Below, one piece after another: positions 1-52,898 of a stretch of 64,000 bases of DNA. Positions within the stretch are counted from its first letter, which is position 1. The number at the start of each line of letters is the position of its first letter. The stretch spans positions 1,488,001 to 1,552,000 of the forward strand of contig JAJQJQ010000043.1 of assembly GCA_028622995.1 (NCBI GenBank), read 5' to 3'. This DNA comes from Panagrolaimus kolymaensis. Taxonomy: Eukaryota > Nematoda > Chromadorea > Rhabditida > Panagrolaimidae. The notes under the pieces are model-generated. The model saw nothing but the letters and a program-made list of their open reading frames with translations, was not told where the DNA came from and made no database searches. The position numbers were made by a program, and so were the translations under genes.

Positions 1-429
1 TTTTTAGTTTGAACTTTAATTAAAAAAACTGCGCTCTTTCCATTCAATTTTGACTTAATTTTTTTTGTTTTATTCTTCGAAAAAAAAAATATTTCACAAC
101 AAAAAATATTTTGAGTATTAAAAAACTGGAACAAAAGAGATTCGTTGATTTTCATGCAAATCAAAAGTATGAAAGCTTCCTTCTTTCGTTGAATAAAAGG
201 AATAAAATTTATTTTTGAAACTGGCTTTCATCGATTTTTTTATTGTTCATTAATTTTAAATATAAACAAAATCATTAAAACTGTTACAATATGCTTTTTC
301 CTAACTATTTTTAAATTGGAAAAAACACATAAAACAGAATTTCTTTTTTTATTTGTACTTTTTAAATTTTAAATTTAATAAAAAAACAAGAAAGGAATAA
401 TTATAAATCTTTTTTTTTGATTGTTTGTT

Positions 430-3109
430 TTATCTTTTAATATTATTATTTCTATATATTTCTGATTCATAAGTACTTTTTAATAAATGAGATCGAAGAA
501 TATATTCTTTTTTGCCTTTTTTATTTTGTCGCTCTTCAAACACCCATGGACCATCAAAATACATCATTTGATCTTCCCTTCGTGGCGCGGGAGGGGGATT
601 CCAACTTGGACTCTTTTTTATTGGACATGGCATTGTTGGAGCGGCAAGGAGGATGGGATCTGAAAAAAAAAAAAATAATGGAAAGATGGAGAAATTAAAC
701 TGTAAACGAAGAAATTTAATGAAATAAAAAGATTTTTTTTAAAAACTGTATCGTAATTTTCGAAGGATTTACAGCGACCGTAAATTATTTTTTATTGTGA
801 TAGCTTTTTTAAAGACTCGTTTAAATTTAAATTTATTTTTTTTGTCTTTTAGCTATCAGCGGTTACATTTGACGGTTGTAATTTTCCAAAATTTCAAATA
901 AACTGCAAAAGCTCGATCAGACCGGAAAATTCCGAACTTTTTTCTTTTAATAAAGCCTTTAGTTTATTTAACAATTTTTAGTGACCGTATGCTTTCTTTT
1001 TTTGATTTAGGAAAGCTTTATTTTAAACTGTGTTCCTTGCTCTGATTGTTTTTTTTCTTTTGGCGTTATAGTAATTTTTAACTGTCCACGACTGAAATCC
1101 GCGGTCATAATTTTTAAGTTTTTTTTAAATAAACTGGAGCATTAGCCGCTTCCCTACAGAAAAATAGAAAAAAATATATTTTCTTCCTAAAAACTGTTTC
1201 ACCAGGTATTTTCAGCAACCATATTTGCTCCTTTGATTTTAGGTTAGCTTTTTAAAACTGTTTTTTTTATATATAAATAAAATTTATTTTGGTTTTTTAA
1301 ACTGATCAGAGTCAGTTGTGCCGATTTTAATTTTTGGATTTTTCAAAAAAAATAATAAGGACATAGCCAATGAATCGAAGGGAAAACTTTAAATATAATA
1401 TTTTTTCTTCACAAAACTGATCAGCTTTTTCAATTCATTTTTTTACTGACGGTTGCCACAATTAAGATAGATTTATAAAACTGACTTGTGCTGTTAAATT
1501 TTTTCAACACTTTTGGATTTTATTAATTCTCCTAAATAAATAATTATGGCTGCATTTTTTTTATAGCATTCACAAAATAAACTGAAGAACTTGTCTTTCG
1601 ACGGAAAATTTTAAATGTAAATTTTTTTCCACTGAAAAACTAATCAGTTTTATTAAAAAAATTTTTTGCTAATCGTATGCTTCTTTGATTATAATAAAAT
1701 TTTAAACTGACTGTTCTTATTTTTTTTGGATTTTTATTGCAAATTTTAAACTGTCGGTGAAAGCGCTTAAAGGAGGCTATTTTTTTTAGCTTTCACAAAT
1801 AAACTGTCTAACATCAATTTACCTGGAGTTTAACATGGATTTAGGAAATTTTAAAATAATTATTTATTAAGAAAACTGAGTTAATTTGTTGAAGGTTTAT
1901 TTATGAACCACATATTTTTACGATTACAGTATTTTTTTTAAACTGATAAAACATAGTAAAACTTTTTTGATTAAGAATTTTTTATGGATTTATATAAATT
2001 TTAAACTGGCATGAAGGTTCCAAAACGGACTTATTTTATTTTTAGCTTTCCTAATACTCTAGTATTTTTTTAACTTAATAACTGCCAAGAGTTTGGCATA
2101 GAAGGCGCGAATTTTAAATAAATAATTTTTTTTAGAAAACTGCATCAATTTTTTTAGGTTTTTTAGTGGCTGCTTTCTTTGACTGATTACAGTAGTTTTT
2201 TTTAACTGCAATCGTACGTTTTTTCTGATCGTTTTTTTGGCACTTCTATAGATGTGGCCCCCCGCTTTTTTATTTTATTTTTTTATTCTTTTTTCTCTTA
2301 ATTTTTTACCACTAAAAATCTGCATATACTCAATTTAGTCAGTTTCTTTCCAATGTCATTTTTCATATTTCTTTTCTCATTAAAAAGAACATGGAAATGG
2401 ATACTTTGGAAGAATTGGAGGACCTGATGTCATGTTTAATCTTTGGAACCAAATTCGTGAACATTATTCCGCTTTTCTCTAATATTTTATTATTATTTTT
2501 ACTAAATACAAATAAATTTCTTTGAATCTTTCAATCCAAGTATCTCAGTCGAATTGTAAAGGAGAGTGCCAAAATAGTTTCAAGAGCTCAATTTAAAGTC
2601 TTTGAATTTGTTTGCATTAGAATTCAAGCTTCTATGGTCGAGTGGTTAGTACATTAGACTATCAAAAGAACAAAAAGTTCGAATCCTCCATTGGTCGAAA
2701 AAAGAATAAAAAAATAAAATAAAAAAGCGAGGGGCCACATCTATAGAAGTACCGTTTTTTTTCCTTTTTAACTGACCAGATGTAACAAGGACCGATTTTT
2801 TAAACACTTTTTTCAAAATAAACTGCTTTTCATTTATTTTTTCTATTTTTTACCTGGAATTCGCCTTCGCCCAACTCTAAATCTCCAACAGCAATCACAT
2901 TCAGCTTCAGCGGGATAAATCCATATCGAATTATTAGCGGCTTTGGTAAAATTATGTAAACTTGAAAACCCATTTAATAAAAGCCATTCAGAAATAATTA
3001 TTCTTAATTTATCAATGGGAATATTAGAAAAATTATTTTCTTCATCCGCTTTTAATAAGGCAGCAATTTCAGATAATTGTGGTTGGGTTAAACGGAAAAT
3101 AGTTGGCAT
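430..3109 (-). CDS. Unknown two-exon gene (161 aa)
   Basis: Exon 1 is 2854-3109 and exon 2 is 430-659. The donor CCAG|GTAAAA and the acceptor TTTTTTCAG|ATCC join in phase (256 nt, then 230 nt) to give an uninterrupted reading frame of 161 residues ending in TAA. The product begins MPTIFRLTQPQLSEIAALL, has an amphipathic helical N-terminal half, a Cys pair (CDCCWRF, about residue 72), a basic RVGRRRIP stretch, then a Pro-rich and Lys/Arg-rich tail. No signal peptide or membrane segment is visible. I do not recognise the family. The 2.2 kb intron holds many AAACTG motifs and a 515-bp MITE with a tRNA-like segment, so this intron has expanded. Coding status rests on phase-consistent splicing and composition richer than the surroundings. 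Confidence 0.6.
2239..2753. mobile_element. hAT-like MITE in an intron
   Basis: The element is 515 bp with ~57-bp terminal inverted repeats beginning GGYACTTCTATAGATGTGGC, two mismatches between the ends. It is flanked by GTTTTTTT on both sides (2231-2238 and 2754-2761), consistent with an 8-bp hAT target duplication, although that duplication is low complexity. It has no transposase, so it is non-autonomous. The interior lacks the CAGTTT/AAACTG spacing seen around it, so it interrupts the array. It carries a tRNA-like segment at 2628-2699 and, at about 2393-2480, a short open stretch reading NGYFGRIGGPDVMFNLWN that looks like a captured coding fragment ending in a stop. Confidence 0.75.
2628..2699 (+). 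tRNA. tRNA-like / pseudo-tRNA segment inside MITE
   Basis: An A-box-like TGGTCGAGTGG (2635-2645) and a B-box-like GTTCGAATCC (2677-2686) are correctly spaced for an internal Pol III promoter. Stems are poor: the D stem has a mismatch, the anticodon stem TTAGA does not pair with its expected partner, and the acceptor arm does not close. It is best read as a degenerate tRNA-derived segment that may still recruit TFIIIC, not as a working tRNA. A T-rich terminator is not obvious directly downstream. Confidence 0.4.
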
Positions 3110-6100
3110 AGAAATAAATATCTATAAAAATAAATAAACTGTATCAAAACATTTTTTCGTGAAAAAAATGATGAAAAAACACGGTTGAAATTATTAGAAA
3201 AAAGAAATTAAAACTTATTAATGAGGGGCATTGGAATAATAAACTGAGATGTATCCGTTTTAACAGGATAATATCTTTACTTATTTTTTTGCTTTTGCAA
3301 ATCTCTGAAGAAAATCTTTAAAAAAAACTGTTGCATGCTTTGGATAGCTAATCAGTCAAAATGCTTTAACAAAAATAAACCTCTTAAAAAATAAAACTGC
3401 AGTGAAAAAGAAGAATGGCATTTTAGGAAAATAAATAAAATAAAAAAGGAGTTTAAAAAACTGAATAAAGGCGGACGAAGCTAGCATATTTTATATAATA
3501 TATTTTATTAATCGCAGGAAAAATTACTTAAAAATCATAAAATAAACTGACATAACTTAATTTAGTAGAAAAAAAAGCTTATTTTCATTTTTCTCTAAGA
3601 ATATTTTGTAAACTGTGTAAGAACCCGGTACTCGGTATCATTTTTTTTAAAATAAAAATTCAACAAAATTTGTTACAATTTTTTTTCTTTCCAATAAATG
3701 AATAAAAAGTTTCTCAAAAAAAGTAAATAAGATCAATGGTTTTATAAAGCTGTTAAGTAAATTTTAAATTTTATTTTGTGTTACAAAAAAAAAATGGAAG
3801 GGAGGAAAAAAAAGAAAAAAAAAATACACGAAGATCATTTTTTTCTTGTGATGGAAGGAAAGTATGTAATCAATCTTTGGTTTTATAAAATAAAACTGTG
3901 TCATCGAGTTGAAGAAAGATTTAATCATACAAAAAATTAAAATTTTTGGAAAATTAAAAAAAAATTAACTATTTCGAAATTAATAAAAATAAGAAAACTG
4001 CATAATAGGGTTTTTTGTATAATTAAGTAATTTAAGTAAGGAAAAAAATTTGTATCGAAAAAAATAAATTAAAAATAACTGTGTTCCATTTTCCTTATTC
4101 GTTGTTTTATTATTCTAGTGTCTTTTCTCAATTAGTTGACTTCTAAAAAACAATATTTTCTTAAATTTTTAAACTGTGGAGATTTCTTTTTCGTCAACTA
4201 ATATTTAAAAAATATATATATGAACAAATTCACTAATTCAATAAATAATAAACTGTGTTCGAATAAAAAAAAGTTGCAAAATTGCAAAAATAAATAATTT
4301 GATATGCAAAATCACGAGTGAAAAGAAAAGCACAAAAAAAAGAGACACAAAAAAGCTAAAAACCCGCGCTTCATCATTTTCATTTTTGGTATTATTTTTC
4401 CTTTCTTTTCCTTTTCCCACTCTCCTCTCTCTCTTTTTTTTTTATTACAAATAAATCCATTTGTTTTATTTATATATGTAAGCCATAAGCCAAAAATAAA
4501 ATACTTAGCTTTGTCTGCGCTGGCTTCTTTTTTTTCTTCTTTGTCAAGGTAAAAAAAAAAGTGAAATAAATAAAAATATAAATAAAATAAAATGAAAGGG
4601 AAACCATATAAAGTACATAAAAAAAAGAAAAAAAGAAGAGAAAGTTTCCGTAACATAGCAGCCCAGCAGCAGAGCAATGGTTCTCCTCCTAAACACGCAA
4701 TGAGTATTATTCTTTGCATTTGCTTTGCTTCTTTAGTTTCGTCTGCTGCAGTCATGTAAATGGAAATGAAAAAAATAAATAAAACTATGGGGAATAATCA
4801 TTTCTTTCTTCTTCTTTTTTTTGTTTATAATTTTTTTTGTTATTGCTTTTTTTTGGAATGAAAAAAAGATTATTTTTTTTTTGTGTTTTGAGAAGAAAAA
4901 CTGTGGAGTGGGAATTTTTTTTGTTGTTGATGTGAGAAAACTGAGTATAAGAAAATAAGTTTATAAATGCCGAAAATTTTTAAACTGTCGGTGGATAAAC
5001 CTATTGGCCGATCCTATTTAAGAAGAGGAAAATCAGAAAAAGATCAAAAAAAGGGATGGATTTTAAACTGTCAGCAGTTGATTGTTTTCAACAATAAAAA
5101 TATGTAATTAATTATGTTTTTTTTTTATCATTATTAATAAAAACTGCAGCCTTTTGCATTAGGTGCGTCACTTTTAATGATTTTATTTTCTAAACTGTAA
5201 AATGTGTTTAAAAAATAAATATCATAATTTTTGTTGGTATAACTGACCGCCCAAATAAAATCTCTGGATTCAATAAATAAATAAATTTTTTTTATGAAAA
5301 AAAAAACTATAATGAAAAGAAAAACTGTTTGCTTGAAACAAATGATTATCAAAAAAAAGGAATGATTTGTAACTCACTGCCATTCATTGGTAACAATTTT
5401 TTCAATACGAAAATCGTAAATAATTTATTTTTGTTAATAAAAACTGGAAGAGGATGAACTTCGGTAACACTTTTTTTATTAAAGGATTTTGTTTTCTAAT
5501 TTAAAAAAATATTAATAAACTCTAATTTTTTATTGTTGGTAAAACTGTTGTACATTAAGCACGAAAGATCTAAGAAGAAATTTTATTTTCTGAGTTAATT
5601 AAACTGTGCAGAAATATCGGAAATTATTTTCAGCATAAAATTGCAAAAAATAAATAAATAAAAAAGATTTATAACTGTCACCAGCTAAAACTTTGTCATG
5701 CCAAAAGTTATAATTAAATTCAGATTTTTTTTAATATTAATAAAAACTGAATAGAATTTCTCTCCTTGGTCTGATTTTAAAGGGTTTTTTTGAAAATCAA
5801 AATCCATGAAGAAATTTAATTTAATTTTATTTTTTTGTGAAAATTAATCTTAGGAAAAAAATATGGAGAAACTATTGGCTGTAGAAAATAGCAAAAAAAA
5901 AAAGAAGAAGAGAAGATTAAACTGAAATTTGATACAATTTTTAATATCAAAGAAAAGAGTAAGGTTTTGTTATTTTTTTTATTACAATAAAAACAGACAC
6001 GAATCAAATTGTTCTTAAGGGGTTTTTTTTAATCTTCTGGTTTACGAGTGGGGTTTAAGAATATTATATTTTTTGTTAAACTGTATTATCCTAACATAGA

Positions 6101-9100
6101 AGGGTTCAAAATAAAGTTTTTTTTTAAATTTTAGTTAGAAAATTAAACTGTCGGGAACTATTTGTGTCGGTTTTAATGCGAAGGGATTACAAAGAATGGT
6201 AGTGTATTAAACTGGAATACATTCTGAGAAATGGCACCAAAAATGTATTTAATTTTGGATTTTTTAAAAAACTGCAATTTATTTCTCAACTTTGAGTTCG
6301 TTTTAGTGGTTTTATTTTTAATTTTAAAATGGATATAAAAATTTTTAGTTTTTCTTGACAAAACTGTAGACATCTAAGGTAAATGGAATCGATAAATATT
6401 TGTTCTTTTGAAAAAAAAATTAAACTGGGTTAAAAATATTTGTTGTAAAGGATAACAAAAACAGAAGGAATTTAAACTGCCATTCACTAACCATACGAAA
6501 ATTGTTAATTTATTTTTATTTTGTTTATTAATAAAAACTGTGTTGCGATGTTTTGTTTTTTTTTAACTTTTAAAACTGATTTAAAACTTATACAATTATG
6601 GAATAACTGCAATTAAAGTAAACAAGGGGTTTAATAAATATGTCATTTTTTTATTGAAATTAAATTTAAACTGACAAGACTCCAGATTTCGGGGAGCTTC
6701 TGTATTTAAAGCATCATTTACTTCAACAAAAAACTGACCAATTAATTTTTCTTTTAGCTTTTAAGGATTTAAAGATTAATTTATCATTAAAATTTTAAGG
6801 AAACTGTAAAAAAAGTAGTAAAAGTTTTTTGGTTTGTTACCAAGAAAAAAAGATTTAAAAAACTGGGAATTATTTCCTTTTTTTTATGCTCTTTTACTAT
6901 ACTAAATTTTTTGTCAACAAAAAAGAAGAGAAAAAGCCGCAAAATTTAATCAAAAAATTAAAACTGCATCAAGAAACCATATCAAAAAAATAGATAAAAA
7001 CTGTTCACTATTCATATTTTCGATCGTTTTAAATGATAGAAAATTTTAAACAAATAACAACAACCATGCGAAAAAAAAATTAAAACGGGTAGAAGAAGAA
7101 AAAACGTAAAAAAAGTTAGGAAAGAAAAGAGAGGATAGAAACATACTTGATTGAAATTTATTTGATGTTGGGAAACAAAAACATGAAAAAAATTGAAAAA
7201 CAAAAAAGGATTAATTTTGTCCCTTCTTTTCCTTTTTTTCTACATATAAAATTATTTTAACTGAACGTAATAAAAAAAACTAGTTTTTTTATGTTTTGTT
7301 TTGTTTTAACGGAAAAAAATATAAATTAACCGTTGTTTTGAGGTAGGCGTTTAAAAAAAGTTGAATGAAATTTTAATTTTTGGGCAATGCAGCGGATTTT
7401 TTTAGGGAAGTTTTTAAATGACCAAAAAGAAGAGGAAAAAAATAAACTGAATAATAAATAATAGCTTAAATTATAAACTGCGAGTTATGTTAATTATTTT
7501 TTTCAAAATCAAAAAATGAAGAAGAAAAAATTAAGGTTGAAAAGCTCTAAATTCTATGAGTCGCGAAAGCATAATCTTTAGCAACTATGTATTAAAACTG
7601 TGGAACACGTTTAGCTTTCAAAACTCTGATTGAAATTAAATTTATGTAGCTTTAAAAAAAATTTTATCAAATTATATTTGAGTATTTTACAATTAAAAAA
7701 ACTGTTGAGCGTTTTTAGGTTTGTGAAAATTAAAAAATTATCACAAATAAAACACAAAGGAAAAAAAAGAAAGAGACAATTTCTAGGTATTTTTTTTATA
7801 AAATTTCATGGAATTTCTTTCGTTTTGCAACACAAAAACAAAAAAATAAACTGTGAACACTGGTAGAATTTTAGGTATTAAAAGAAAATAAAATCAAAAA
7901 TTCGAAAAAAATAAAAAAAAGTTTTAAAACTGTCTTCATTAATGGAAAATGGTGGGCAAGAATTAACTGAGTTGCAGTTATGGAAAGAGGCAAGGCAAGC
8001 CCATGAAAATAATTATAAAAAATTAAAATTTCATTGAAATATGTATTTTTTATATCGTTAATTTTTAAGCTTTAATTTATCGAAAATATAATTTAAACTA
8101 TTTATGGAACAACTTTTATTGGGTAAAATAAAATTTTAAGGAAAAAAATAAATTAAAAGAAAAAATATAATCAAAACTGTAAGATTCTTCAAATTCAACT
8201 AAAAAAAAGTTAAACCAAGACAGAAAATATTTTTGCACTTCATCAGCTTTAAGGATTTTTTTATTGGAGAAAAAAACTGGATAAAGTGAAAATTGAAGCC
8301 TTAAAAAACTGATTACAAATTCTATATAAATTTATTAATCAAAAACTGAGTCGAGAATAATTTTATTGAAATTTATTAATGTAAAAACTCAAAAAAAAAC
8401 TGAGTGAATTTGAATCATTTTCAATAAAACCCAAAAAAGTAAATCAATCCAATTTAGAACGCGAAAAGAAAGAAATACAAAATAAGAAAATCAAAAAATG
8501 TCATCGCATTCAAAAAAAAGAAAGAAAAAAAATTAAAATAGACTCAAATTAAAAACCGTTCCGTTTCGTTCCATTTTCTTCAAAGGTGTCTTGTCTTGCG
8601 TGTGTGACATTCATTCACTCAATCAAAAAATTTTTTTTAAATGAATGAAAAACATGTCAAAAGTGTAAGTCGTCTCTCACATTGTCAAAAATTCAATTTT
8701 TTCCCTCAAAAAAAATTGCAAAAAATAAAAAATCGATTATTATCGTCATTTTTTTGTGAAAATGATCTCTTTCCCTCATTTTTTTTTTTCAAACAAAAAA
8801 AAAGAAAAGAAAAAAGAGTTTCAATTTCTGTCAAATCAAATTACTTTTACAACAACTTTGACAAGTTTTCTATCCATTCTCTTTATCCTTCCATTTTTTG
8901 ATAGACTTATCTATCCCCTCTTTTTTTTAAAAAACGAAAAAATAAAAAATGAAAATTGATCCATCCTTCTTTTTTTTATCTACGAAACAAAACAAAAAAA
9001 ACGTGAATGTAAAATTTGCAACAAAAAAAAAGAAAAGCAAAAAATTTTTTAGCAACGTAGCCGCTGACTTTTAAGTAAGTTACTCTAAATACTGAAAAAC

Positions 9101-9480
9101 TGATTATCAATGAAGAACATTTGTTACTTTGTTTTAAAATATTTCAAAGAATTTCAATAAAAAAAATATACATAAAAAAAAATAAGCGATCAATGCTCGA
9201 AAAAAAAGGTTAAAGAATTTTTTTTTTGCTGCTCAAGTTTGTGAAGGAAGAGTATCGCTTCAATTTTCAAAAAAATCAAAACTTTACGAAATTGTTCGAA
9301 AAATTCATTCTAAATAAAAATCTTTTTTTTCTTTCTTTCTGGTATTTTTCCTTTTCCATGCTTGATCCAAAATTTAATGTCGAATTCCACGCAAAAAAAA
9401 GACACTAAAAAGCATGGATTTTTTTCGTGTCTTGGCTAATAAAATTCAAGCCAAAACATTTTAATTTCACACATTCCACC
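3110..9480. other. Gene-free motif-bearing DNA and strand-switch zone
   Basis: I see no convincing protein gene here. Content is AT-rich with AAACTG motifs to about 9107. The segment 4640-4760 has more balanced composition and an open frame on the minus strand starting MTAADETKEAKQMQR near 4755, but it runs into low-complexity Phe/Leu/Lys sequence and has no clear splice partner. 8570-8680 is also less AT-rich and could be a promoter. Between about 9110 and 9480 no motif is visible in either orientation. This is where the motif orientation flips. Confidence 0.5.
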
Positions 9481-9932
9481 ATCAGTTTTGTATTGTAATT
9501 ATTTTCATTCCTTGGGCAGTTTTTATCTCTATTTGCCTTCCAGTTTTTTTTTGATATTAATTTTGTATCCATCTGTAAAATTTCTTGTTACATATTTTAT
9601 TTAAAACTTTTGCCCAAGAGTTTTGTTTTTATAAATTTTTGATGGCTCTAACTGTATCCCTCTCAACAGATAAAAAGACAGTTTTATTTTTTTGTGTGAT
9701 TTTTATTAAAATGAAATTAATATGATCTCCAGTTTTTTTCTTTATTTGGAACTTATTCCAATTTTTTAAGGGCAACACCCAATCACAAACAGTTAATATT
9801 TTTGAAAAAATAATTTATTAAAAATTCATTTTATACAACAAAATCAAAAATCAAAAAAATATATCTTTGCCGTTTTAAAGAAACGCTACTATTAGACAAG
9901 TGTATTGCGCCTGCTCCTCCTCAGTTTTATTA

Positions 9933-10365
9933 TTATGGTATTTGGGTTGATTGTGGGCCTTCTAAAAACCGTTGATCGAAATAAATTCTAATCAGTTTAA
10001 ATTTTTGGTAAAAAAAACTTACCACAAACACAAGACAAAGTATCACAAATGCCATTAATAAATCCTTGACTTTGACAATAAATATTGCATTTTTCATCAT
10101 CGAAGCATGGTCCTAAAAAATTATTGACTATGTAATATCAGTTTTATTTTTCATAAAATGAGAAATATCTTTGTTAAGCCAGTTTTTAATATAAAAATTT
10201 TGTCCGCCGTTCATAGCTCCCAGTTAATTAAAAAAATATATCAAAAAAATCTTGCTTACCCATAGCTAAAAATGATCGAATAGGTTCGGGAATTCCATCA
10301 GCTTCAACTCTTATAAGTAAGAAAAAAACAAGAAACAAAGCTACAGTTATTAATTTTAAAGCCAT
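9933..10365 (-). CDS. Small secreted cysteine-rich, defensin-like peptide
   Basis: Three exons (10260-10365, 10023-10112, 9933-9961) with canonical GTAAGC/GTAAGT donors and TTTTTTAG/GTTTTTAG acceptors join in phase to give 74 residues. Residues 1-22 form a strong hydrophobic signal peptide (MALKLITVALFLVFFLLI). A short propeptide-like segment follows. The mature part has six cysteines (about 38, 44, 48, 58, 63, 65) spaced C-x5-C-x3-C-x9-C-x4-C-x-C. The CxxxC and CxC elements are the signature of the cysteine-stabilised alpha-beta fold, found in nematode ABF and arthropod defensins and in some toxin-like peptides. The role is most likely antimicrobial, from fold pattern only. It is the first gene on the right side of the motif strand switch, and its introns carry CAGTTT motifs. 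Confidence 0.7.
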
Positions 10366-11337
10366 ATTTGTTCGACAAAGCAGTTAAAAATTGAAAAAAG
10401 ATATTTAATCAATGGAAGCAACAACAAGAAAAAATATTGATGTTTCCAGGATTTTTTTAAAAAAGAATCATAAAACAAAAAACGTTTTCTTTTTTTGAAT
10501 TTTAAAAAGGTTTATAATAATTTTAATGTTTTGATCTCCAAATTGATCTTTTCAAATTCAGTTTAAAAAATGATGTGAGCTTTAGAAAAACGTAAAATAT
10601 TTAAAATGAAAATTTCCACAATCCTTGGTACCTAATCGTATGCAGTTTTAACAAAAATATTTAAAAATTAATTATTGCTTTTATCCAACCGCCGACGAAT
10701 AACGTATGCAGTTTAAAAAAATTCTTTAAATTAAATTACATAAATTCCATATTTTTTTATATCAAATCCATGATATTTGAAAGTACAAAGATCAACAAAA
10801 TTCCACAGTTTTGTTAAAAATAAATGTTTTAGATAAAAAAATTTAAAAAGTAAATCAAAAATCACTTCTCTTCGCAGTTTTTAGTTTAATTTATTTGAAG
10901 AAAGCAAAAAGGCAGTAACCAATTAATCAGATAAAAAAATCATTCTCTTATTCGAAAAAAAAAAAATGAAACGCTTCTGAAACAAAATATATTGGGGAAA
11001 CGCAGTTTAAAAAGCCAAAAACAATGTAGTACAGTTAAAAAAAAATATTATGTGTAATAATAATTAATACTTCATTATGACAAACATAAGCGCGCTTCAA
11101 AAGAGATGAAGAAAAAAAACGGTGAAAACAGTTTAAAATTTTAAATTCCAAAATATTATGAAGGACCTTTCAATTTGGGTAAATACAATCCATCGCAGTT
11201 AAAAACAAAGTTTGATCAAAATCGAAGTATTTTTCTGAAGCACAGTTTTTAAAAATTATAAAACAAAAGTGATGCCTGCTCAGTTATAATAAATGGATTA
11301 AATTTTAATTCTTTGGGATTTGAAATGGTGTTTATCA
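10366..11337. other. Intergenic motif array, no gene seen
   Basis: AT-rich DNA with CAGTTT motifs (for example about 10559, 10641, 10709, 10807, 10875, 11003, 11131, 11243). No open frame with coding character and no RNA gene recognised. Confidence 0.5.
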
Positions 11338-11345
11338 CTTGGGAC

Positions 11346-11722
11346 TAGTGTTCATTTTCCCCCCCGCGGGACGGGATTTTCCCCGCGGGAACGGGGACGG
11401 GGAGCCCCCGCGGGGGCTCCCCGTCGAAATTTTTTCCCCGTCATTTTCCCCGCGGGGAATCCCCGCCGATAATTTTTCCCTGTCTAAAAATTTGAATATT
11501 TTTCAAAATTCGTTAATAATAATCTAAACTTTTTCCAAATGGCTTAAAACATCTAAATAACACCAAATTACATTAAAAAAAGGCATTTTTGAGGCAATAA
11601 CCCAATTTAAGAAAAATTTATAATGAAATTCCCCGTAATTCCCCGCGGGGATTCCCCGTCAAAAAAGTTCCCCGTCCCGTCCCCGTATTTTTTCAAAAAC
11701 GGGGGGGGGGGGATGAACACTA
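11346..11722. mobile_element. hAT-like MITE with 8-bp TSD
   Basis: A 377-bp element with perfect 10-bp termini TAGTGTTCAT / ATGAACACTA, flanked by the 8-bp direct repeat CTTGGGAC (11338-11345 and 11723-11730). The ends are C-rich or G-rich. The interior contains repeated CCCCGCGGGG and CCCCGTCCCC blocks, including a palindrome around 11400-11422. This is a striking GC island in AT-rich DNA. There is no coding capacity. TSD length and TIR form place it with hAT non-autonomous elements. Confidence 0.85.
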
Positions 11723-15200: not shown

Positions 15201-18200
15201 CTTTAGCAAAAATAAGATTTTTCGGTCCAACATAATGATCATCGAGAGGTTCACGTTCAGGTGTTGCTTCGTCATCCTCCGTTTGACATCCAATTGACGA
15301 TGATAATGATGTAGCGGAAGCAGCATTTTCCTTTTTGAGTGTTTCAACTTCTAACAATTTTGGTATCATCATTTCGTTTAACCTTTCTGTTCCATCTGCT
15401 TTCCAAGTATAATATCGAAATATTCCTAAAAAATAACACACAGTTAATTAAATTATACAAAATAAAATAATAAAAATAAAAGAAAACGCTTAACAAGTAA
15501 ACAGGTAAAATTATTCAAACTCAAAAAGAAACTTGGAACATCCAAAAAATTTTAAATAACAAACTATGGTTTGCACAAAAACTTGGTACTCAGTTTTATT
15601 CTATCTTTTCCAAGCAATTTAAAGCGTTGCTAAAACATTTTTTTCCATTTGCCATAACCCAAATTTTAAAATGGAACCAATCTTTAAAACTAAAAGACAC
15701 AAAGATTTGAAGCTAATTAACCAAAAAATGACAGTTTTTAAAAAATCATGAAATTATGGTAATGATTTTCATATTGACATTCAAAACGAAAACTTAAATT
15801 TCAGTTTTATAAAAATATTATATTGTAAAGTAAAATAAAGTTTTTTCTTATCTTGGTAAAAACCCTCCAAATATTACTGAAAAGAAATAAAAGAAGCTAT
15901 CAGTTTTATTTTTGGCTTTCAATAAAATTTTTGTAAATTTACAAAATACTTTATTGGAATTACTAACTAAAAAAATAATCAAACAGTTTAAAATAAATAT
16001 TTTTAGAATGAGAAGTGAATAAACAAAAAAAGAAGAAATAAACACAAAAAAAGCGAATTTACAGTTAACTAAATTTATAAGTAAATGAGAACCTCGTGTG
16101 TAAAGGCGAAAATATTAAAAAAGGAATAGTTTTGAAAAACCATTTAATTTTCACGATTCATAGAGGAGGAACTAAAGAACTAAAAGCTGACAATTTCAGA
16201 AAAACAAAAAAAAAAACAATAAAGTTTTTTTAAAAAAACATTTACTTTTGATCTTAACCGATAGATAAGCAGCAAGCAATAGGAGGAGAAAAAAAATTTT
16301 AAAAACAACAAAAAATGTTTCTGAAATATTCGGTCTTTTTTTATTTAAAGGGAAGAAACAAATAATATTTTCAAAATAATTTTTTCAATCGATCAATCAT
16401 GTTTGAAACAAACTTTCAGAAGAATAAGAAAAATTAATGTTAATGATCTAAAGGTTCAAAAAAGAATGGGAGGAAGGAAAAACAACAACAATTTCATTGT
16501 GTGTTTATTTTTAGCTTTTTGCTAGACTAGAAAAAAATGGGGAATCCCTCATTGATTTGTGTGATAAAAAAATGGGAGAAAAAACAATAGAAAAAAAACT
16601 TTTTAAAAGTAAAAATGAAAGAAAACGCGCTCAGTTACGAAAAACTAAATTTAAAAAAATAAGGAAAGCCATTGACAAAATTCCGAAAATCACAATATAA
16701 CTCAGTTTTTTAAAAGCATTTATTATGATCATATCAGTTAATAAAAACCTTTTTAAAGGAAAGCCAACCTCTAACAAAAAAAGGAAATAAAAAAAAGGAG
16801 AAAGAAAGGGTCATGAAACACGAGGCTCCAAAAAATACCTAATTGTAAACTCAGTTAAACAAAAAAAATTTCCTTAAAAAAACAAATAAACTTAAAAAGC
16901 AGTTTTGTTAATTTATATATATATATTCAAAACTTTGGAAACTTAATTCCTAATTTGAACCGCAGGAAAGAATACGCAGTTTACTTTTTTTTAAAGCCGT
17001 AACAATCGAATATATTATTTCAGTTTAAAAGCGAATTTTATTTTTTCTTCAGGACATTTAACGCTTTCAAAAAAATTCAAATAAAGGAAGGAAGAAAAAG
17101 CGTCATCGTTATTGAAAAAAAAATGAACAACGACACACGAGTGAGTGCACCAAAAAAACCAAAATAGAAAAAAAAATATAAGCATGTGGCTATTTAGTCT
17201 TCGTCGAATGAGGAGACTAAAGGAAAAAAGACGAGTGACATTTGAAAGCAGAGAATGAAAGGCAAATGTTTGCTTCTTGCTTATGGGGAACAAAAAAAAG
17301 GAGAGAAGTGGTGAAAAGAAGGCAAGAAAAAAGAAACGTGTGCCGAATGCGTGGTTTCCTTTGAAAAAACGAAACATTAAAAAAAAGTGATGTGAAACAT
17401 TTAGTTCCTTATTTTTTTCTAATAATGAAAAATAAGCTTCAAAGCAGTTATTTTTTTTTAATTATATCGTTTTTGATTAGAATCAAAGGCGCTTTGGCAG
17501 TTTTTTATGATGTAATAATTTAATAATAGAATTGAAAAGTCAGTTTTGAAACTATAAACACATACATCGACAGTTTAAAAAAAAATTTAATATTTTCCTT
17601 AAGTTATACAGTTATTATTGTTTCTCTTCCCATTTTCTGTATGCAGTTTTCATGATGGCCATAATAATAATTTATAATTGTATGTAAATAAATGTTATGC
17701 CAATAATTATATAACTCAAAATTTAGACCATTAATGTTAATGATGAGATTCAGTTTTAATTCCAAGCCCCTTAATTTTAAAAGATTTTTTTATTGCTTTT
17801 TTCCCCTCAGAAAGCATCTGATTTTTGCTATCATTAATGTTTATTTATTAGGTGACAGTTTAATTTTGTCAAAAAAAAGAAAAAGCATGCATGCGACAAA
17901 TAAAAAAAACGCATTAAATTTTACGTACGTAGTTTTTTTTCATTTAGCTTGGAGTTTGAATGCACTCTTTCACGTTTTTTATGTAGCAAATAAAAAAAGG
18001 AATGCACGAATGTTAATGTTAAATACAGTTAATATGATTTTGTTTTTTAAGCTTGAAAATACACAACATTTGTGCTTGAAAAGTTTATAGAAAAAATTCT
18101 TTGCAAAGATCGGTGAGCGTCTGAATTCAGTTAAAAATTATAAAAAAGGGTTAAAAAATTGGCAATTCAAATCAAATCACCCATATACAAGAAATGCCCC

Positions 18201-19254: not shown

Positions 19255-19392
19255 TCTTTGTTGATATCTTCGATGATGTTGTTGTTGATTCAAAGTGAAT
19301 AATTGTCGACGAGAATTGTTATAATTTCCAAGTTTTTTTGATTCTTTAATTGAGTTGTCGTCGTTAAATGAATGATATAAGAAGACGAACCT
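19255..19392 (-). promoter_or_regulatory. 5' UTR and putative trans-splice acceptor of asparaginase gene
   Basis: On the minus strand TTTGTTTTTCAG precedes position 19392. No ATG occurs between it and the chosen start at 19254, so it could be a spliced-leader acceptor. The region is also open in the coding frame (RFVFLYHSFNDD...), so it could be the continuation of an exon with an upstream start. Confidence 0.4.
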
Positions 19393-20759: not shown

Positions 20760-20850
20760 TTTTTTTGTGCGCGCGAGCATTTTTTATTTTCCATCATCGC
20801 GTCGCGCCACTGTCGCAGCGCTACTGGTTTATAAACTTCAACTTTGACAC
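20760..20850. promoter_or_regulatory. CpG-rich, possible promoter block
   Basis: GTGCGCGCGAGC followed by CATCGCGTCGCGCCACTG and CGCAGCGCTACTGG is a marked GC/CpG island in an AT-rich region, upstream of the minus-strand asparaginase gene and without an equivalent in duplicate copy B. It may be a promoter, but nothing else supports this. Confidence 0.25.
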
Positions 20851-21448
20851 CAAAATGCTTTCGATTAAATAAAATAAAAAATAAAACAAAACACAGACAT
20901 TCTTGTAAAATGAAAAAATAAATAAAACGAAATCGTTCATGCTTTTGTGTCTATCGCTTGCTTGTATTTGCTCATAAATTTTTTTATCTCTTTTCTTTTT
21001 GCTTTGATCATAAAAAAAGGCTAAAAAGATGATTGATAATCGTGTGTTTTAGTTTATCTATTTTGCCTTTATAATAACCTTCAGAGAATAAAAATAACAG
21101 TTTGAAAAAAAAAATATTTAAGAAAAGTGAGATAGAGTTCTAGCAAATAATCTTTGGCCTAAAATCAAAAAAAATTATTGGGACATTTTTTTTGGGTGCT
21201 TTTTTTCTCTTTTTTTTCAATGAAATTATCAAAGTTTGTGACTTTGTGATTTTCGAATAAAAAAAATGAGAGACGAGTCATTAAAAAAGTTTCTAAAAGT
21301 TTTTATTGTTTTTTTTATTATTCTTTGAAGTTAAGTTTTTTATGATTTTAAATATATGTATGTACTTTTGACGAATGAAAATAAAAAGACTAAAAAAGAA
21401 ATATGCGGGTTAATGAGAATTTTGTTTTAAACAGGTTTTTTTTCGAAA

Positions 21449-21690
21449 TAGTGATGCCATGCACCCTGAGAGAAAGTACGTTAGTAAGCACTAAAATAAG
21501 AACCCATAAAAAAGTTAGTTTTTTTTATTGACTCGAGAGTACTTGAAAAAATTAAGTTGAACCGAACAAATACGCGGGGAAATTCCTTCCATAAATAGTC
21601 TGGCTGGTTGTGTTCTAAAAATGTAAGTAATAAAATTTTATGTTTTGACATCATTTGATCGAATTTGTAAAATCAGTAAAATACAGTTTT
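21449..21690. other. Conserved non-coding block (copy A)
   Basis: About 115 bp starting GATAGTGATGCCATGCACCC is near-identical to 27266-27380, including AAGTACGTTAGTAAGCAC and GACTCGAGAGTACTTG. It continues through TCTGGCTGGTTGTG and TTATGTTTTGACATCATTTG with few changes, while flanks are strongly diverged. There is no open frame. It contains CTGA and GTGATGC elements that loosely resemble snoRNA boxes, but no convincing C/D or H/ACA layout. It could be a regulatory element or an unrecognised RNA. Confidence 0.45.
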
Positions 21691-24600
21691 ATATTTTGCG
21701 AAAATCAAAAACTGACGCCTGCTACAGTTTTAAAATTCATCAAATCCTTTTGTTAACCGTAAAAAATTATGGCCAGTTTTCTTTGAATTAATCTTTTAAT
21801 TCTGAAAAACGAATTCAGTTTGAAATTTTATTTTACCAATTTTAAAAATCTGGTTAAATTTTAAGATGGATATTATTTAATAATTTATGTCAGTTTTTTT
21901 ATCTGAGAAAAAATCCATTATCTAATTTCTCAACCAGTTTAAAAATTCTTAAAATTATTTTTTACTAAAAAAATGAAAGAACTCAGTTTTATTTTGACTA
22001 ACTTTTTATATTTTGAAGTAAAGAATTCAATTTTTTTGGTTTGTAAAAAATATCACTCCTACATAGATGCTGCTCCAGTTTAAAAAAAAAATAAAATCCT
22101 TACATATAAGTCATATCACACAGTTAATATTGATTTTACTTTTTTCCCGCAAAATTTTAATTAAAAATTCCATTTTTTATTTTCTTGTTTCTCTTCCAAA
22201 AACAGAATATTGAATTTTTTTTCAGTGAATCACTTTAAAAATTTTTTTTTTAAAATGTCTTTTATTTTATACAGTTTTGTATTTAATTATCATTTAAAAA
22301 AGTTCTTCTGAATCCAGTTAAATTTAATTTCTTTTATGTTCCAAGCAAAATCAAAACTAATTGATCCAGTTTAAAACTTTTTTTAAATAACTCTTCAAAA
22401 GTTTAAATTCCAGTTAAAATTCAGATTTTCTTTTTTACAAAGAATAAGCTTTTTTTAATTTTTTTAAATTAAAAATAACCGACAATATTTGTGTTAGCCA
22501 GTTAATTAATAATTCATATAATAAATATCGAAAGCCTTAATTTTGAATAAATCAAACGATAATTATTATTGTAGTACAGTTTTAAAAAAAATTAAATAGT
22601 TTCATAATGATGGTAAAAAAAATAATCAAAGCCATTAAGAAAAAAAAGATTACAGTGAAAAGAAAAATAATATCAAATAAATTCCTTACTTTTTTTTCTT
22701 GCTAATTTCCAGTAATGTCAGACGTTTTCAGTTTTATATGTATTTAAAAATGTTGTTTTTTCATAGCAGCAAAAATATCCCTCTAACGAATCTCATCCCA
22801 GTTATTTTCTGTAAAGAATTCATAAACCCCAGGATTTTTTTATTGAATGCTCAACTATTGAATTCAATATCACCAGTTTTTATTTAATATTATAGTTAAA
22901 AAAATTAATTTTTACGTTTAAAAACTTTTCAAATAAAAAAATAAATATTTTTTACTAAATATTTTTAAAAATCTCCACTACCAAACAGTTATCCTTCTTT
23001 GTTTTTCCTTTGAGCCCTGTTTTGTTTTTAAAAAATAAAGAAAATGCAATTTATAATTCCAGTCCAGTTTTGTGTATATTTTTTTAAGTAACAAAAGAAT
23101 GACCTCTAGCTAAATAATTTTTTTACCTCCAATTCAATAAAAACTTGTTCAGTTTTAAACTTTTAATAATCTTTAAAGTCTGGCATTCAAAAAAATAATT
23201 TTGCATACAGTTTCACAAAAATTTGGAGTTTTGATTTTTTTTAAATTAAAACCAATGGTCAAGGCAATCTCCAGTTAATTTTTTTAAATAAAATTTTTGT
23301 AAAAAAGGATTATTATAAATGTTTAATAATTTTGAAAAAATATGCTACTCTGATCCTCAGTTTTTTTTTTCAGTTCGATTAGATAAATTTAGTTTATTTT
23401 GGATAAAACAAGCCATAATTTTACAAAAATTCAGTTTATTTTTATTAATTTTTTTCTTTGCGCCCAATGTTAGTGGAAATAAAATATTATTATCTTCAAG
23501 ATGAAAAAGAACAGTTTTCTTAAATTTAAAAAAAGAAACATTCTAACTTAATTTTTTTAATGTCTGAAAAATTTTTTCAGCAGATATCAAATTTTTATTT
23601 TCCATTGAATCCCATTTTTTCTTTTAAAGTTTAAAAAAAAGTGATAGTTCTGTTCAGTTTTATATTTACATCCAATAAAAAAGGGCATTCACAAACCTGC
23701 TATGCAGTTAAAAATATTTTTTTCCTTCCATTTCAGTTGGTACAGTTTAAAACTTTTTTAAGATATCTTTTAATCACCGATTTCAGTGAAAATAATGATT
23801 TCAATGTAAGAAACAGTTCGACGACATCCTAAAAAAGAAATTGTGAAATTCTTAAATGACCCGCGCCTTTTGAATTTTCCAGTTTATTATTATTAAAATG
23901 TAAAAAAAATATCGAAAACTATAGTTTTTTTATAAATCGAAGTATAATTTTTAAATTTTTTATAAAAAAATACCCAGTTTTTTTTTTAAATTAAACTTAA
24001 CCTAATTGGCTGTTGAATAAAGAAATTCATTGCCTATAAAAAAACAACACAGTGATAAAAATAATTAGTTATATGTAAATAAATTCTTTACTTCTTTTTA
24101 TTTAAATTTTAAATCCTCCAAACACATCATGGTTTTACAGTTTTATGTATTTAAAAATATTGTTTTATTCTACAAAAATCAATTTCTTCGCGCACAGTTT
24201 TTTAATAAAAAAATTCCAAAAAAAAAATTTGTGACGAAAGAATTTTTAATTCAATGTTTTTACACATAAATGTCAATGCCCCCAGTTTTTACTTAAAATT
24301 AAAGCTAAAAAAAATCTGATTTTACTTTTTTTTAATTAAAAACTGGTTAATGAAGAATACAGTTATAAATTATAAATAAATTAAAAAAAAAATTTTTTCG
24401 ACGAAATCTCTCGCTGACAGTTTTTAAAAAATCCATAAAAGCATTCATTCATTCCCACGAACTCAAGAATCACAGTTACTATGGTATTTTTTTTTATTGG
24501 AAATACCGAGGTCATTTCAATTACACAGTTTAATTTTAAAAGGATTAATGCAGTTTTTTGCCATGGTTTTTAAAAATATTAATATCGAATGGAAACCGCC

Positions 24601-25434
24601 GCAGTTTAAAAAAAAGAGAGAAGAGGTCATACGGGATAAATATCAAATAATTAATATTGATTGCTGGATTTTTCAAGTACCACAAGCGCCGACTCATCCA
24701 GTTTTACCTAAAATCATGGGTTTTAATATTATAAAAATTATCGAGTTTAAAATCTGCTACAGTTAATTTTCTCTGTTTATTACTCTTAAAAAATAAATTT
24801 ATTCTCGATACATGAGAGGAATGAAGATTGAAAATATGTTCAAAGGACAGTTTTTTTTTCAGTTCGAAAAGATTAATTTAATTTGATAAATATCTAAAAA
24901 AAATTGCAAATATTAATTTAAATTTTTTTTTGTTTATTACTTTGTGGCAGTTTTAAGAAATCTCAAAAACCATTCATTCACACGGAATAAACCAAAGACA
25001 GTTATTTTAAATTTAATCTTTGAAATTTTTTAAAATCAGTTTCGTAATTTTTTTAATAATATTGCATCAAAATTTTTTCGCTATTTTACATTCCCACATA
25101 TTCCAGCTGACTGCAGTTTTAATGAAAACCCAGCCAACAATACAAAATAGTGAATCCTAATTTAAGAATTACAGTTTTTTTTGATACGAAAAGCTTAAGA
25201 AGAAATTCAGTTAATTTTTAGTATACAAAAAATTTGTAATCAAATACAGTAAAATTTAATGAAATCCCAATGAAGATTCTTTTTTTTCAAACATAATTAT
25301 TTTGTACAGTTTTTACATTACTTTTTATAATTTATCAAAAAAATCAACTCAGATATTCCATACGTTAGGTTAGCTAGTAATTGCTTATCACTTAAAATTT
25401 TCTGAGTACTAAGAGGTCCCAGTTTTACTAAAAA

Positions 25435-28400
25435 TGTTAAAATTAATTCGCATTGAAGAATTCACATCCATTGTGACACCCCCAGTTTAAATAAAACTCG
25501 ACTAAACAAAAAATAACTTCGAAACAGTGAATTTTTTAAATTATATAATATTATATCACAGTTTCTTTAAAAATCAATGGTAAAAATCCTAATTAACTTT
25601 GACCCCAAATGTTTTTTCTCATAACAGTTTACAAAAATAAAATAAATAGAAAGGAAAAGGGAAAAATATAAAAAAGGCAGAGAACCGTGGAAGAAAAGTT
25701 GAAAGTCGTCGTCGTCGGTGAACATAGTTTCAAAAAAGGCGAACGAATAAAATGCATTTTTTATGCGTCAGTTGTTTAGCGTCAAAAAGAGAGAGAAAGA
25801 AAGTAAAAAAAAAGTCAAGGATTTTGATGAGTAAAATTTTAAAATTAGAATAAAACAACAACAAAAAATGAATCAGAAATCAAGGGAAAAGAAAAGTGTA
25901 ATAAATTTTTTACATAAACAACAAAAAAACAAGACAGCTGTTTAAATTTTTTACTTTTTCTAAAACTGATCTAACAATAACAGTTAAAACTTTAAAGCAT
26001 TTCTTTGGAATATTCACATTTTTTCCCCTGCCAATATTATATCTAAAAACTCAGTTTTTATCTTTAAATAATTTTTTTTCAATTCTGGAAAAGTTTTAGT
26101 AAGAAACCAAAAAAATAAAACCAAGTACATCACGGTTTTATTCATACATACAATTACTTAGCTATAAAAAAAAGTAAATTGTTTAGCTATTGGACGGATC
26201 TCTCTCCTGTTTTTTTCTTCTTAATATTCCATAATTATTTTTTAAATATCTAGTATTTTTGAATAATCCATCCCGAAAGACGAATATCAACTCAGTTAAT
26301 AACAAAAGAAATTTTAAATTTAATAGCGCTGTAAAAAAAATTAACCTAGGAACGTGGAAGAATGCAGTTTAAATCTTTATTTAAATTCACACAGTTTTTT
26401 AATATTTAAAAACTTAAAACAGTTTTTAATTTAAAGTAATCGTCGAATGCAGCTTGGAACAGTTTTAGTTTTCCTTAAAAAATAAAAAAATTGCCCTATA
26501 ATTTTGAAATCCACAGTTTAAATTTAAAATTAGTAATTGCCATGTCGATATTTTGATAGGTGTAATTGTTTCAATGAAAATTAACAGAGTTTCGAAATTT
26601 AAAAAAAATTATTAAAAAGCTCCTAATCTTTACTCAGTTTTTTTTCTAATCTTGAATCTTTCTTTAAAAAATTAACACAAAAAACCAATCATTAAAATAA
26701 AAAAAAATACAGACAAAGCAAAACACAGACATTCGAAAATGAATGAAAGATTAAACAAAACGAAAGCATGCAATACCTTTGTCAGTCTGTCAATCGTTTG
26801 CATGTGCTTGATCAAACATATGTATTTATCGTGTTCTTTTCTTTGATCATAAAAATGATAAACGTGTGTTTTAGTTTATCTATTTTGCCTTTATAATAAC
26901 CTTCAGAGAATAAAAATAACAGTTTTTAAAAAAATAAGACAGGAGCAAGAAAATAATCTTTGGCCTAAAAACAAAAAAAATTTGGATACATTTTTTTGGG
27001 TGCTTTCCTTCTCTCTTTTTTTCAATGAAATGATCAAAGTTTGTGATTTTGGAATTTAAAAAAAAAGAGAGTCGAGTCATTAAAAAAGTTTCTAAAAGTT
27101 TTTTATTGTTTTTTTAAAGTTTATGAAACCTTTCGTTTTTACGATTAGAAATATATGTACTTTGACGAATTTTGAAAAATACAAATAAAGAAAGAAATAT
27201 GAGGGTTAATGAGAAATTCTTTTTTTAATTATTAAAACAACGGGTTTTTTTTATCTTTGACGAGATAGTGATGCCATGCACCCTGAGAGAAAGTACGTTA
27301 GTAAGCACTAAAATAAGAACCCATAAAAAAGTTAGTTTTTTTTATTGACTCGAGAGTACTTGAAAAAATTAAGTTGAACCGATCATGCGGGGAAATTCCT
27401 TCCATAAATGGTCTGGCTGGTTGTGCTTTAAAAATATAAGTAATAAAATTTTATGTTTTGACATCATTTGTTCAAATTTGTTAAATCATCAATATCCAGT
27501 TTTATATTTTTGATAAATCAAATAAACGTAACTTAAGACAGTTTTAAAATTCTTAAAAGTGTTTTTAATAAATAAAAAATAAATAAATGCAGTTTTCTTC
27601 TTTGGATTAATCCTTTTATAGTGAAAAGAAGAGCTCAGTTTAAAATTCTATTTGTCCAATAAAAAATACGAGTTGGTTGTTTTAAAAAATGAGGTTAAAG
27701 TTTAACGAGGAACCGTGTTTATTAGATTTTATCAGTTTTTATCCGAAAAAAAATAATCAAGAACTGATTTCATATTGCAGTTTTAAAATTTTTAAGATCT
27801 TTTACTTACAATCAAATAAATTCATTTTGCTTTGAATTTACTTTTATTAAATATTTATCAATTCAGTTTTTTCTTTGTTTGAAAAAAATATATCACTTCT
27901 TCATAAATGTTGCTCCAGTTTAAAAAAAAATAATAAAACTATTACACAGATAACATTGAATTTATTCTTCTCTTTTTTTGTCAAAAATAAAATAAAAATT
28001 TTCCATTTTTATTTCCAAATTTCTCTTCAAATAGCAGTTATCGAAAATTCTTTTAACCGAGTTTTGTTTTTAAAAAAATAAAAAAAGCAATTAAATTGTT
28101 CTCCAGTTTCATGTTTATTGCTTATTAAAAAAAGATGACACGTTGACCTTCAGTTAATTTCTTTTCTCCTTTTTTTTTATCGAATCCGATAAATAATCAT
28201 TGACTCAGTTTAAAACTCTTTTTTTTTGTTAATAAAACTTCAAAAGCTAGGTTTCACCTTTGAAAATTTATATTTCAGTTAAACAAAATTCGGCAGTTTT
28301 AATAAATTAAAATTATTAAATAATTTACTTCGCCTTAAACGCATGCAGTTTTTTTTAATATATTTTTCTCAACAGCAAATGGAAACGCAGTTATTAAAAA

Positions 28401-29260
28401 ATATATCGGCGATAGATAGAAAATTATTAGCGCTGGCTACTTTGCTTTCTAAGTTTTTTCAACAAAGTGATTAATATGAATGTTTAATGATATTAAAAAA
28501 AATGTTTTAATGCTTTACAGTTTTTTTAGTTCGAAAAGATTAATTTGGTTTATTTTGATAAAACAAGCTTTTTATTTCATAAACCGATTAAATAAATAAT
28601 ATTCAGTTTATTTTGAGTAAATTTCTTTCGCCAGAGTTAAAAAGAAAAAATCATTATTATTTTTGATGATCTGATAATCTAGCAGTTTTCGTAAAATAAA
28701 AAATGCGTACGTTATTTTTTTAAATTTGTTTTTGTTGAGCAAAAAATCAAACAGTTAACTAATTTTCATTTTGAATCCTGGTTTTTTTAATTAAAAAAAA
28801 GACTAATGATAGCTTTCATTTTTCAGTTTTGTATTCTATGTCCATTAAAAAAAGAACATAAAGAAACACATTTTTTTTGTCTTTGATAAAAATTTATTGC
28901 ACTTTAAATTTTTTTATTCATTAATCTTTAAAGAAAGGGAATTTGAATTTCAGTTAAAAAATGCTTTCAATGTAACAAAAATTTGATATTTTTGGAACGG
29001 AATTTTTAAATTTATAAACTTACCTTTTTTATTCATAAAAAATCGAAAAAAAAATTACCATAATAAGTTTTAATTAAATTTCTCCCCCATAGGATTTGGT
29101 ACATTCAGTTTTTATTTAAAATTTATTTTTACTTTTATAAAGCTGGTGTTAAAAATAGTCCAACCATAAATTTAAAAAAAACTATTTTTTTCTTTAGTTA
29201 TCTTTGTTGCAGTTTCTAAAATTTACGTAAAAGCATTCAATCACTAACAATAATCCAATG
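25435..29260 (+). repeat. Segmental duplication, copy B
   Basis: The direct-repeat partner of copy A. It lacks about 375 bp corresponding to 19185-19560 of copy A, exactly the part holding asparaginase exon 1 and its acceptor, but keeps the flanking upstream block at 25683-25820. It carries CAGTTT motifs at positions equivalent to those of copy A. A third partial relative of the terminal part (CATTCATTC-containing unit) lies at 24840-25010. Confidence 0.7.
27266..27490. other. Conserved non-coding block (copy B)
   Basis: Partner of 21449-21690. Differences are few single-base changes and a short indel near 27381. CAGTTT-type motifs resume directly after it in both copies (21684 and 27497). 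Confidence 0.45.
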
Positions 29261-29946
29261 ACATTTATTTTGGAATTAGTTTTTGAAATGTTTTTTATTC
29301 ATTCAGTTTTGGAGGATTTTAATAATATTTTTGAAATTTTATCGCCCTATAATTTTATAAATTAAACATCATTATCCAGTTTTAGTAGAAAGTTAAACGG
29401 TAGAATACAGTTAACCATAATTAAATTAATTAAAAACACAATAATTTTTAGCGAAGGAAACAACATTTTTTATATTTCAAAAAAAAAGAAATTAAGTTAA
29501 ATTTATAGTAAAAAAAATATTTTTTTGATATCAAATAGGATTATTACTTATGAAACGAAACAAAGTGCTGCAGTTTTTTTTTGCAAACTTTATTCATTTT
29601 TTCATTCAGTTTCAATTCATCTATCACAGTTTTTTTTTCGATTATAAAATTTATTTATTTTTTAAAGAACCTTTACAACAGAAATACAAAAAAATACATA
29701 ATAAACTAACAAAAAATTGTTTTTTTTATTCCAAATAATAAAAATAATATGAATGCTAGTAATAAAAAAAAATCAAAGAAGGTCAAAAACACAAAGAAAA
29801 TAAATTTCAGTTTTGATTTTTAAATTATAAAAAAGTTTTCATAAAAAAATATACACAGGTTTTTAAAAAAAAGGGAGGATACTGTACAAAAAATAATGAT
29901 TTCACAAATTCGGTGAATTTACATATTTATTTTACATTTTTTTTCT

Positions 29947-52891: not shown

Positions 52892-52898
52892 CTGTAAA

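Follow-up and report, generated by a model that had tools for sequence, protein, structure and literature searches.

A strand-coherent array of AAACTG-led units in the nematode Panagrolaimus kolymaensis as a candidate cluster of 21-nt RNA loci

The array and the genes around it

The window analyzed here comprises 64,000 nucleotides of the free-living clade IV nematode Panagrolaimus kolymaensis, known for its revival from Siberian permafrost (positions 1,488,001–1,552,000 of contig JAJQJQ010000043.1, hereafter C42), and genome-wide searches covered 265,843,910 bases in 807 contigs. The left part of the window harbors a dense stretch of the hexamer AAACTG, or CAGTTT on the other strand, which spans positions 27 to 29,808 and consists of two converging domains. 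The first domain (27–9102, plus strand) contains 83 units of the shorter core AACTG, located between 27 and 9,098 and read rightwards. After a switch point at 9103–9482, the second domain (9483–29812, minus strand) contains 197 units, seen as CAGTT on the plus strand, which are located between 9,483 and 29,808 and read leftwards. The median unit spacing is 71 bp, and the 280 domain-strand units are accompanied by 14 AACTG of the "wrong" orientation within the same limits.

An earlier note on this DNA had proposed counting the motif per strand against shuffled controls. In the first 29.9 kb of the window, the domain strand carries 214 copies of AAACTG and the opposite strand 5, against an expectation of 16.1 (standard deviation 3.8, maximum 26) from 200 dinucleotide shuffles. 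The other letter orders of the hexamer have a mean count of 7.0, and the runner-up, AACTGA with 86 copies, overlaps the motif. The array is real, and the note's description of a motif recurring every ~40–100 bp over ~30 kb, in one orientation per domain and up to the edge of a p62-like gene, is borne out. Its restriction to positions 1–29,830 applies to the window, the remainder of which (29.9–64 kb) has 16 AAACTG against 31 expected (60 shuffles), but not to the genome, for arrays recur on C42 and on other contigs. The units are intergenic and intronic as the note had stated, whereas its exclusion of exons is too strict: exons, as predicted by a codon model with a training set of 1,566 codons, are strongly depleted, and across the tested array stretches they hold 14 of 837 units where 58.9 would be expected from their length.

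The last unit, at 29,808, is followed by a minus-strand gene at 29956–33092, in which Pfam detected only a ZZ domain and which is p62/sequestosome-like by reading. Within the second domain, the exons of an ankyrin-asparaginase gene extend over 12258–15447 on the minus strand, and units sit in its introns on the strand of the gene. Among the 120 matches listed, the spliced asparaginase has its nearest relative in Panagrellus redivivus (70% identity), and the other nematode proteins in that list reach at most 65%. A comparison with the CENP-B-like or 19-bp centromeric boxes of Meloidogyne was dropped, as the asparaginase points to panagrolaimids and no tandem unit was seen in the array. A same-strand rule for units and host genes was also rejected, with six cases on the same strand (ABC transporter, AHA1, RPA1, asparaginase, and the short genes of the sampled loci L023 and L025) and three on the opposite strand (the lipase of L024, the SDR of L026, and a small frame at 2.85–3.1 kb recognized by eye). 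In this tally the lipase exon copies of L024 were counted once, and exons at or beyond array edges were left out (L015 left end, L018, L022, and L026 right end).

Several further features lie in or near the array. BLAST revealed an old internal duplication in the second domain, with copy A at 20821–24560 and copy B at 26651–29420, both on the minus strand; two BLAST pieces within these ranges show 73.9% and 67.1% identity. The first domain is interrupted at 2239–2753 by an insertion of ~515 bp with 57-bp terminal inverted repeats, and no plus-strand unit occurs between 2204 and 2770. The insertion contains a stretch that looks tRNA-like by eye; ARAGORN detected no tRNA in the window, this stretch included. 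At Rfam gathering scores the window gave 0 matches, and 14 loci of 140 kb gave one tRNA. By eye, we also noted a very C+G-rich short repeat of the CCCCGCGGGG type amid the AT-rich array DNA at 11360–11720, and a reading frame for a small cysteine-rich secreted, defensin-like protein on the minus strand inside the array at 10020–10370. At the right end of the window, a 136-bp AT-rich tandem satellite (52898–64000, 81.6 copies with 96% matches) continues through positions 1–2129 of the adjoining locus L019, ~13 kb in total, and separates two stretches of the right-hand array domain.

Anatomy of the unit

We aligned 906 AACTG, each with at least five same-strand neighbors and at most one opposite neighbor within 600 bp, from 12 stretches (the joined one on C42 and 11 further loci). 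The background set consisted of 204 stray AACTG with at most two same-strand neighbors, and AACTG of intermediate density or near the ends of stretches were left out. The T of AACTG is numbered as nucleotide (nt) 1.

The alignment revealed a core motif, (A/T)AACTG, which marks the 5′ border of a longer unit of fixed build; the CAGTTT(T/A)A of the earlier note is only part of the motif, read from the other strand. The unit begins with an AT-rich leader, in which the G+C fraction (GC) goes down to ~0.2 across the 24 bp before the motif and to at most 0.12 in the last five. The GC of the body is ~0.3 through nt 22, this last position having 0.37, and drops to 0.21 at nt 23; T is present in 47% of the units at nt 21 and G in 30% at nt 22. 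Information above the local composition ends at nt 22, and all later positions to +84 carry at most 0.015 bit. Upstream on the AAACTG strand, positions −79 to −31 likewise carry at most 0.015 bit each and position −30 carries 0.018, whereas closer to the motif there is only AT-richness and the core itself; a Ruby-type motif ~40 nt upstream was not found in this 906-unit profile. An example of a unit lies at 1719–1773 on the plus strand, where an AT-rich leader precedes AACTG at 1749–1753; given boundaries taken from the profile, the predicted 21-nt RNA would occupy 1752–1772, with the T of AACTG as its first base, followed by G at 1773.

The 204 stray AACTG have no GC step (0.303 versus 0.299) and no enrichment of G at nt 22. 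By contrast, both the body-versus-flank GC step (p from 5e-16 to 2e-3) and the G at nt 22 are significant separately in each of five locus groups, namely C42 outside the window (n = 253), the window (249), C3 (190), C18 (155), and C5 (59). The step is also visible by eye in the profile of 392 units without a further AACTG within 80 bp on the side examined. The bodies are highly diverse, with 884 distinct 21-mers among the 906 and 22 that repeat another. Gaps under 400 bp (n = 857) have a median of 70 bp and no periodicity; the spacing falls away below about 28–30 bp, with 34 gaps under 30 bp, and thus units seldom overlap. TTTT follows the body directly in 41% of cases versus 35% further on (AAAA, 35% versus 33%), an excess too small for an RNA polymerase III terminator in each unit. 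A strand-specific bias of T over A in the body was dropped as a character, since T exceeds A upstream too.

The fixed signal lies on the other side of CAGTTT, so that an RNA, if any, would be read on the AAACTG strand with the motif overlapping its 5′ end. The polarity and the Caenorhabditis elegans-type layout of the earlier note, which proposed looking for 5′ ends at a fixed distance downstream of the motif, are not supported.

Arrays elsewhere in the genome

We sampled 20 stretches of 10 kb, comprising 12 neighbors of the window and 8 on other contigs at or near matches of a motif-derived 14-mer. Arrays are present in 10 of the 20 (L015–L017, L019, L020, and L022–L026), and the last quarter of L018 runs into the array of the window; the remaining nine (L009–L014, plus L021, L027, and L028 on C1, C10, and C31) contain none. 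Among eight 3-kb loci, the six on C3 lie inside arrays and those on C1 and C2 outside. On C42, plus-strand arrays extend over about 1,452 to 1,476 kb and about 1,486 to 1,497 kb. The minus-strand arrays span 1,497 to 1,518 kb and, farther right, about 1,554 kb to at least 1,572 kb.

A pair pattern consisting of TTTTTAAACTG, 20–50 bases, and TTTTAAACTG has 72 matches genome-wide versus 0 for its reversal as a control. The matches fall on C3 (12, from 6.78 Mb on), C42 (11), C18 (4), C5 (10, at 0.73–2.75 Mb), C20 (13), C23 (12), C40 (2), and C81 (2), with one each on six small contigs and none on the largest contigs, C1 and C2. The units are thus concentrated in few large regions, both intergenic and intronic, as are nematode 21U loci. 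The 14-mer has 74 matches genome-wide versus 40 for its reversal and is 23–30 times denser on C3 (7.2–10.1 Mb), C18, and C42 than elsewhere, in regions set post hoc. The 11-mer TTTTTAAACTG has 4,408 matches versus 2,217 for its reversal; this excess, together with its presence in 40 of the 906 units, suggests that the assembly of this species, described as triploid (PMC10374039), holds some 50,000 units, although this rough estimate could be wrong by a factor of several.

Close copies of the asparaginase exon lie on C42 (100%), C18 (98%), and C3 (93%), and these contigs represent the three haplotypes of one region; from the pair counts, we guess that C5, C20, and C23 form a second trio. Three distant copies of the exon, 64–65% identical, lie on the same three contigs. 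The copy on C42 corresponds to a second, diverged asparaginase in L009 (2623–4077; C42:1390621), ~110 kb from the first, with counterparts on C3 and C18. The array DNA diverges fast: a 1.2-kb stretch finds its counterparts on C3 and C18 only in part (78% over 856 bp and 87% over 475 bp), in contrast to the 93–98% identity of the asparaginase exon protein between contigs. In L024, two lipase exons with identical translation (786–1181 and 7429–7824) lie 6.6 kb apart within the array; they are a recent tandem duplication, which may have copied array units as well.

Candidate 21-nt RNA loci and their known counterparts

As in nematode 21U loci, the body has a fixed length but a free sequence and lies between a T at its 5′ end and a step from GC-richer to AT-rich DNA, which argues for an RNA product. 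We thus consider it probable, with considerable reservation, that each unit is a locus for one ~21-nt RNA with a 5′ U, and that the array is a cluster resembling those of PIWI-interacting RNAs (piRNAs), that is, a 21U-like cluster in a clade IV nematode. In this respect the earlier suggestion of a 21U-like locus survives in its tiny uniform units, their AT-rich intergenic and intronic clusters, and a built-in length of 21–22 nt. In the putative model, RNA polymerase II (Pol II) would start within the AAC of the motif, at an A two nucleotides upstream of the U, and would stall at the T–G step, where the GC-richer stretch turns AT-rich. The stalled Pol II would release a precursor of ~23 nt, which would lose two 5′ nucleotides; the resulting 21-nt 5′-U RNA would be loaded on an Argonaute outside the PIWI clade. 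Nematode piRNA transcription is reported to begin two nucleotides upstream of the U, and a drop in melting temperature (Tm) to coincide with the 3′ ends of piRNA precursors in Pristionchus pacificus and, less sharply, in C. elegans (PMC6436959). Pause motifs of the species compared, from bacteria to man, are described as having in common a TG step at the active site, with a varying exact register (PMC8096220); by this analogy Pol II may pause at the T–G step of the unit, in a tentative register. The strand coherence over tens of kilobases is suggestive of long one-directional transcription, on which the units would depend or from which they would be cut; independent mini-genes and the processing of a long precursor both fit the DNA.

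Argonaute exons are abundant, with 143 Piwi-domain exon matches genome-wide, which we note as a large family even given triploidy and multi-exon genes. The SEGQ motif, of AGO or worm type, is present in all 14 Piwi-domain loci readable on the forward strand among 20 taken. As exact DNA, the PIWI-type motif DGVGDGQ has 0 matches genome-wide and DGVSEGQ has 24. An approximate C-terminal part of fly Piwi, used as a query, gave 50 weak matches of 25–40% identity, the best-scoring at 27%. The check for a PRG-1 homologue that the earlier note had called for was thus negative in the pattern and fly Piwi searches. PIWI is likely absent from the genome, though not proven to be, given the approximate query and the fact that some PIWI proteins bear motifs other than DGVGDGQ. 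This result agrees with reports that regard PIWI and piRNAs as lost except in clade V and the plectids, and that describe the related Panagrellus as lacking piRNAs (PMC6436959, PMC4323106).

Several points weigh against our proposal. The RNAs and their expression are inferred from the DNA. Besides AT-richness, no upstream promoter element was found in the 906-unit profile, and the authors of the Strongyloides ratti study also report finding no upstream motif for its small RNAs (PMC9203780). The motif and fly Piwi searches detected no PIWI-clade gene, with the 143 exon matches not all classified. Among the five locus groups, C5 shows the weakest sign at nt 22 (GC, p = 0.002; G, p = 0.045). The duplicated arrays do not demonstrate conservation of the motif, which is intact in place in 21 of 43 cases when left unmasked and in 7 of 43 when masked during alignment. 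Finally, a DNA-binding complex contacting AAACTG and a site ~21 bp away would give the same boundary.

This last point leads to the strongest alternative, in our view an unlikely one, in which a chromosome protein, such as a meiotic pairing-center or chromatin-domain factor, binds the units and they yield no RNA. A core motif with a weak distal half-site two helical turns (~21 bp) away fits the profile. Meiotic pairing centers carry clusters of short zinc-finger binding motifs near one end of the chromosome, to which pairing proteins bind, and the large clusters on few contigs resemble such arrays. Binding sites, however, would hardly account for one-strand orientation over 9–20 kb (280 units versus 14) or for the avoidance of exons (14 of 837 versus 58.9), and the 884 distinct bodies among 906 contradict an origin from tandem repeats. 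Considerably less probable are 21U genes of the C. elegans type, in which CAGTTT(T/A)A would serve as a Ruby-like promoter ~40 bp upstream of the RNA on the CAGTTT strand. The Ruby motif lies some 40 nt upstream of the C. elegans 21U RNA, and the clustering, AT-richness, and intronic and intergenic location are as expected of such genes; CAGTTT also loosely resembles CTGTTTCA. However, the CAGTTT strand shows no fixed YRNT start at 8–79 nt downstream in the 392 units free of AACTG within 80 bp on that side: the best of 72 offsets reaches 10.2% at 79 nt against a mean of 6.9% (standard deviation 1.3%). T alone peaks there at 8–13 nt (up to 47%), within the AT-rich stretch adjoining the motif, and offers no fixed start either; moreover, the fixed signal is on the other side and no PIWI gene was found in the motif and fly Piwi searches.

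Slightly less credible still are RNAs of the CAGTT strand for which a weak C–A initiator ~20 nt upstream would be the start and CAG the end, so that the motif would act as a 3′-end signal. C at −20 and A at −19 are indeed enriched, and the AT-rich stretch past CAGTT could terminate transcription, but the strongest element would then fall at the 3′ end, and a 5′-U preference is absent near the would-be start. Least of all do we favor the view that the units are what is left of a decayed satellite or of a short mobile element that inserted again and again. The local duplications and the 22 repeated bodies might point that way, but the spacing is irregular and aperiodic, the bodies are unrelated, the internal boundary is sharp and fixed, exons are avoided, and all three contigs bearing copies of the asparaginase region have arrays.

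Returning to the 21-nt RNA loci, we tentatively raise a broader possibility, which we hold to be somewhat doubtful: that panagrolaimids keep or have re-invented a 21U system without PIWI, with tens of thousands of motif-led units in few large clusters and a promoter or processing motif fused to the 5′ end of the RNA, such that clade IV did not simply lose piRNAs. If so, the 21-nt locus architecture would have outlived or outpaced its Argonaute, and the array would provide the missing source rule for the 21–22U RNAs of Strongyloides. The register of the unit predicts the start and end of each RNA exactly, and thus offers a cheap comparison with small-RNA libraries, and the unit would be a new promoter design for studying Pol II pausing at minimal genes. 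Among the literature matches listed, nothing concerned piRNAs in Panagrolaimus, and no title tied AAACTG or CAGTTT to 21U loci.

Among known systems, the uni-strand piRNA clusters of flies share the long one-directional domains; the present array has regular internal units bearing a motif, which are not known to occur in fly clusters. A closer counterpart is found in clade IV. S. ratti is reported to produce 21–22-nt 5′-U RNAs, 88.78% of them overlapping others, from X-linked clusters with AT-rich upstream DNA, and is held to lack PIWI (PMC9203780). The predicted RNAs resemble these in length, 5′ U, clustering, AT-rich upstream DNA, and the likely absence of PIWI, but differ in their strong motif and in units rarely closer than 28–30 bp. 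The type I 21U loci of C. elegans and other clade V nematodes, reported to exceed 15,000 in C. elegans (PMC7917550), differ in that the motif here lies at the RNA's own 5′ end in place of a Ruby motif upstream, in the strand coherence over tens of kilobases, in the clade IV host, and in that PIWI was not found. Since neither a distal motif nor PIWI was found, we call the array 21U-like and not a member of the clade V 21U family. With that family it shares thousands of tiny AT-rich intergenic and intronic loci in few large clusters, and the 21-nt unit, the 5′ T, and the GC or Tm drop reported near the 3′ end (PMC6436959), seen here as the step from 0.37 to 0.21, computed as GC and not as Tm.

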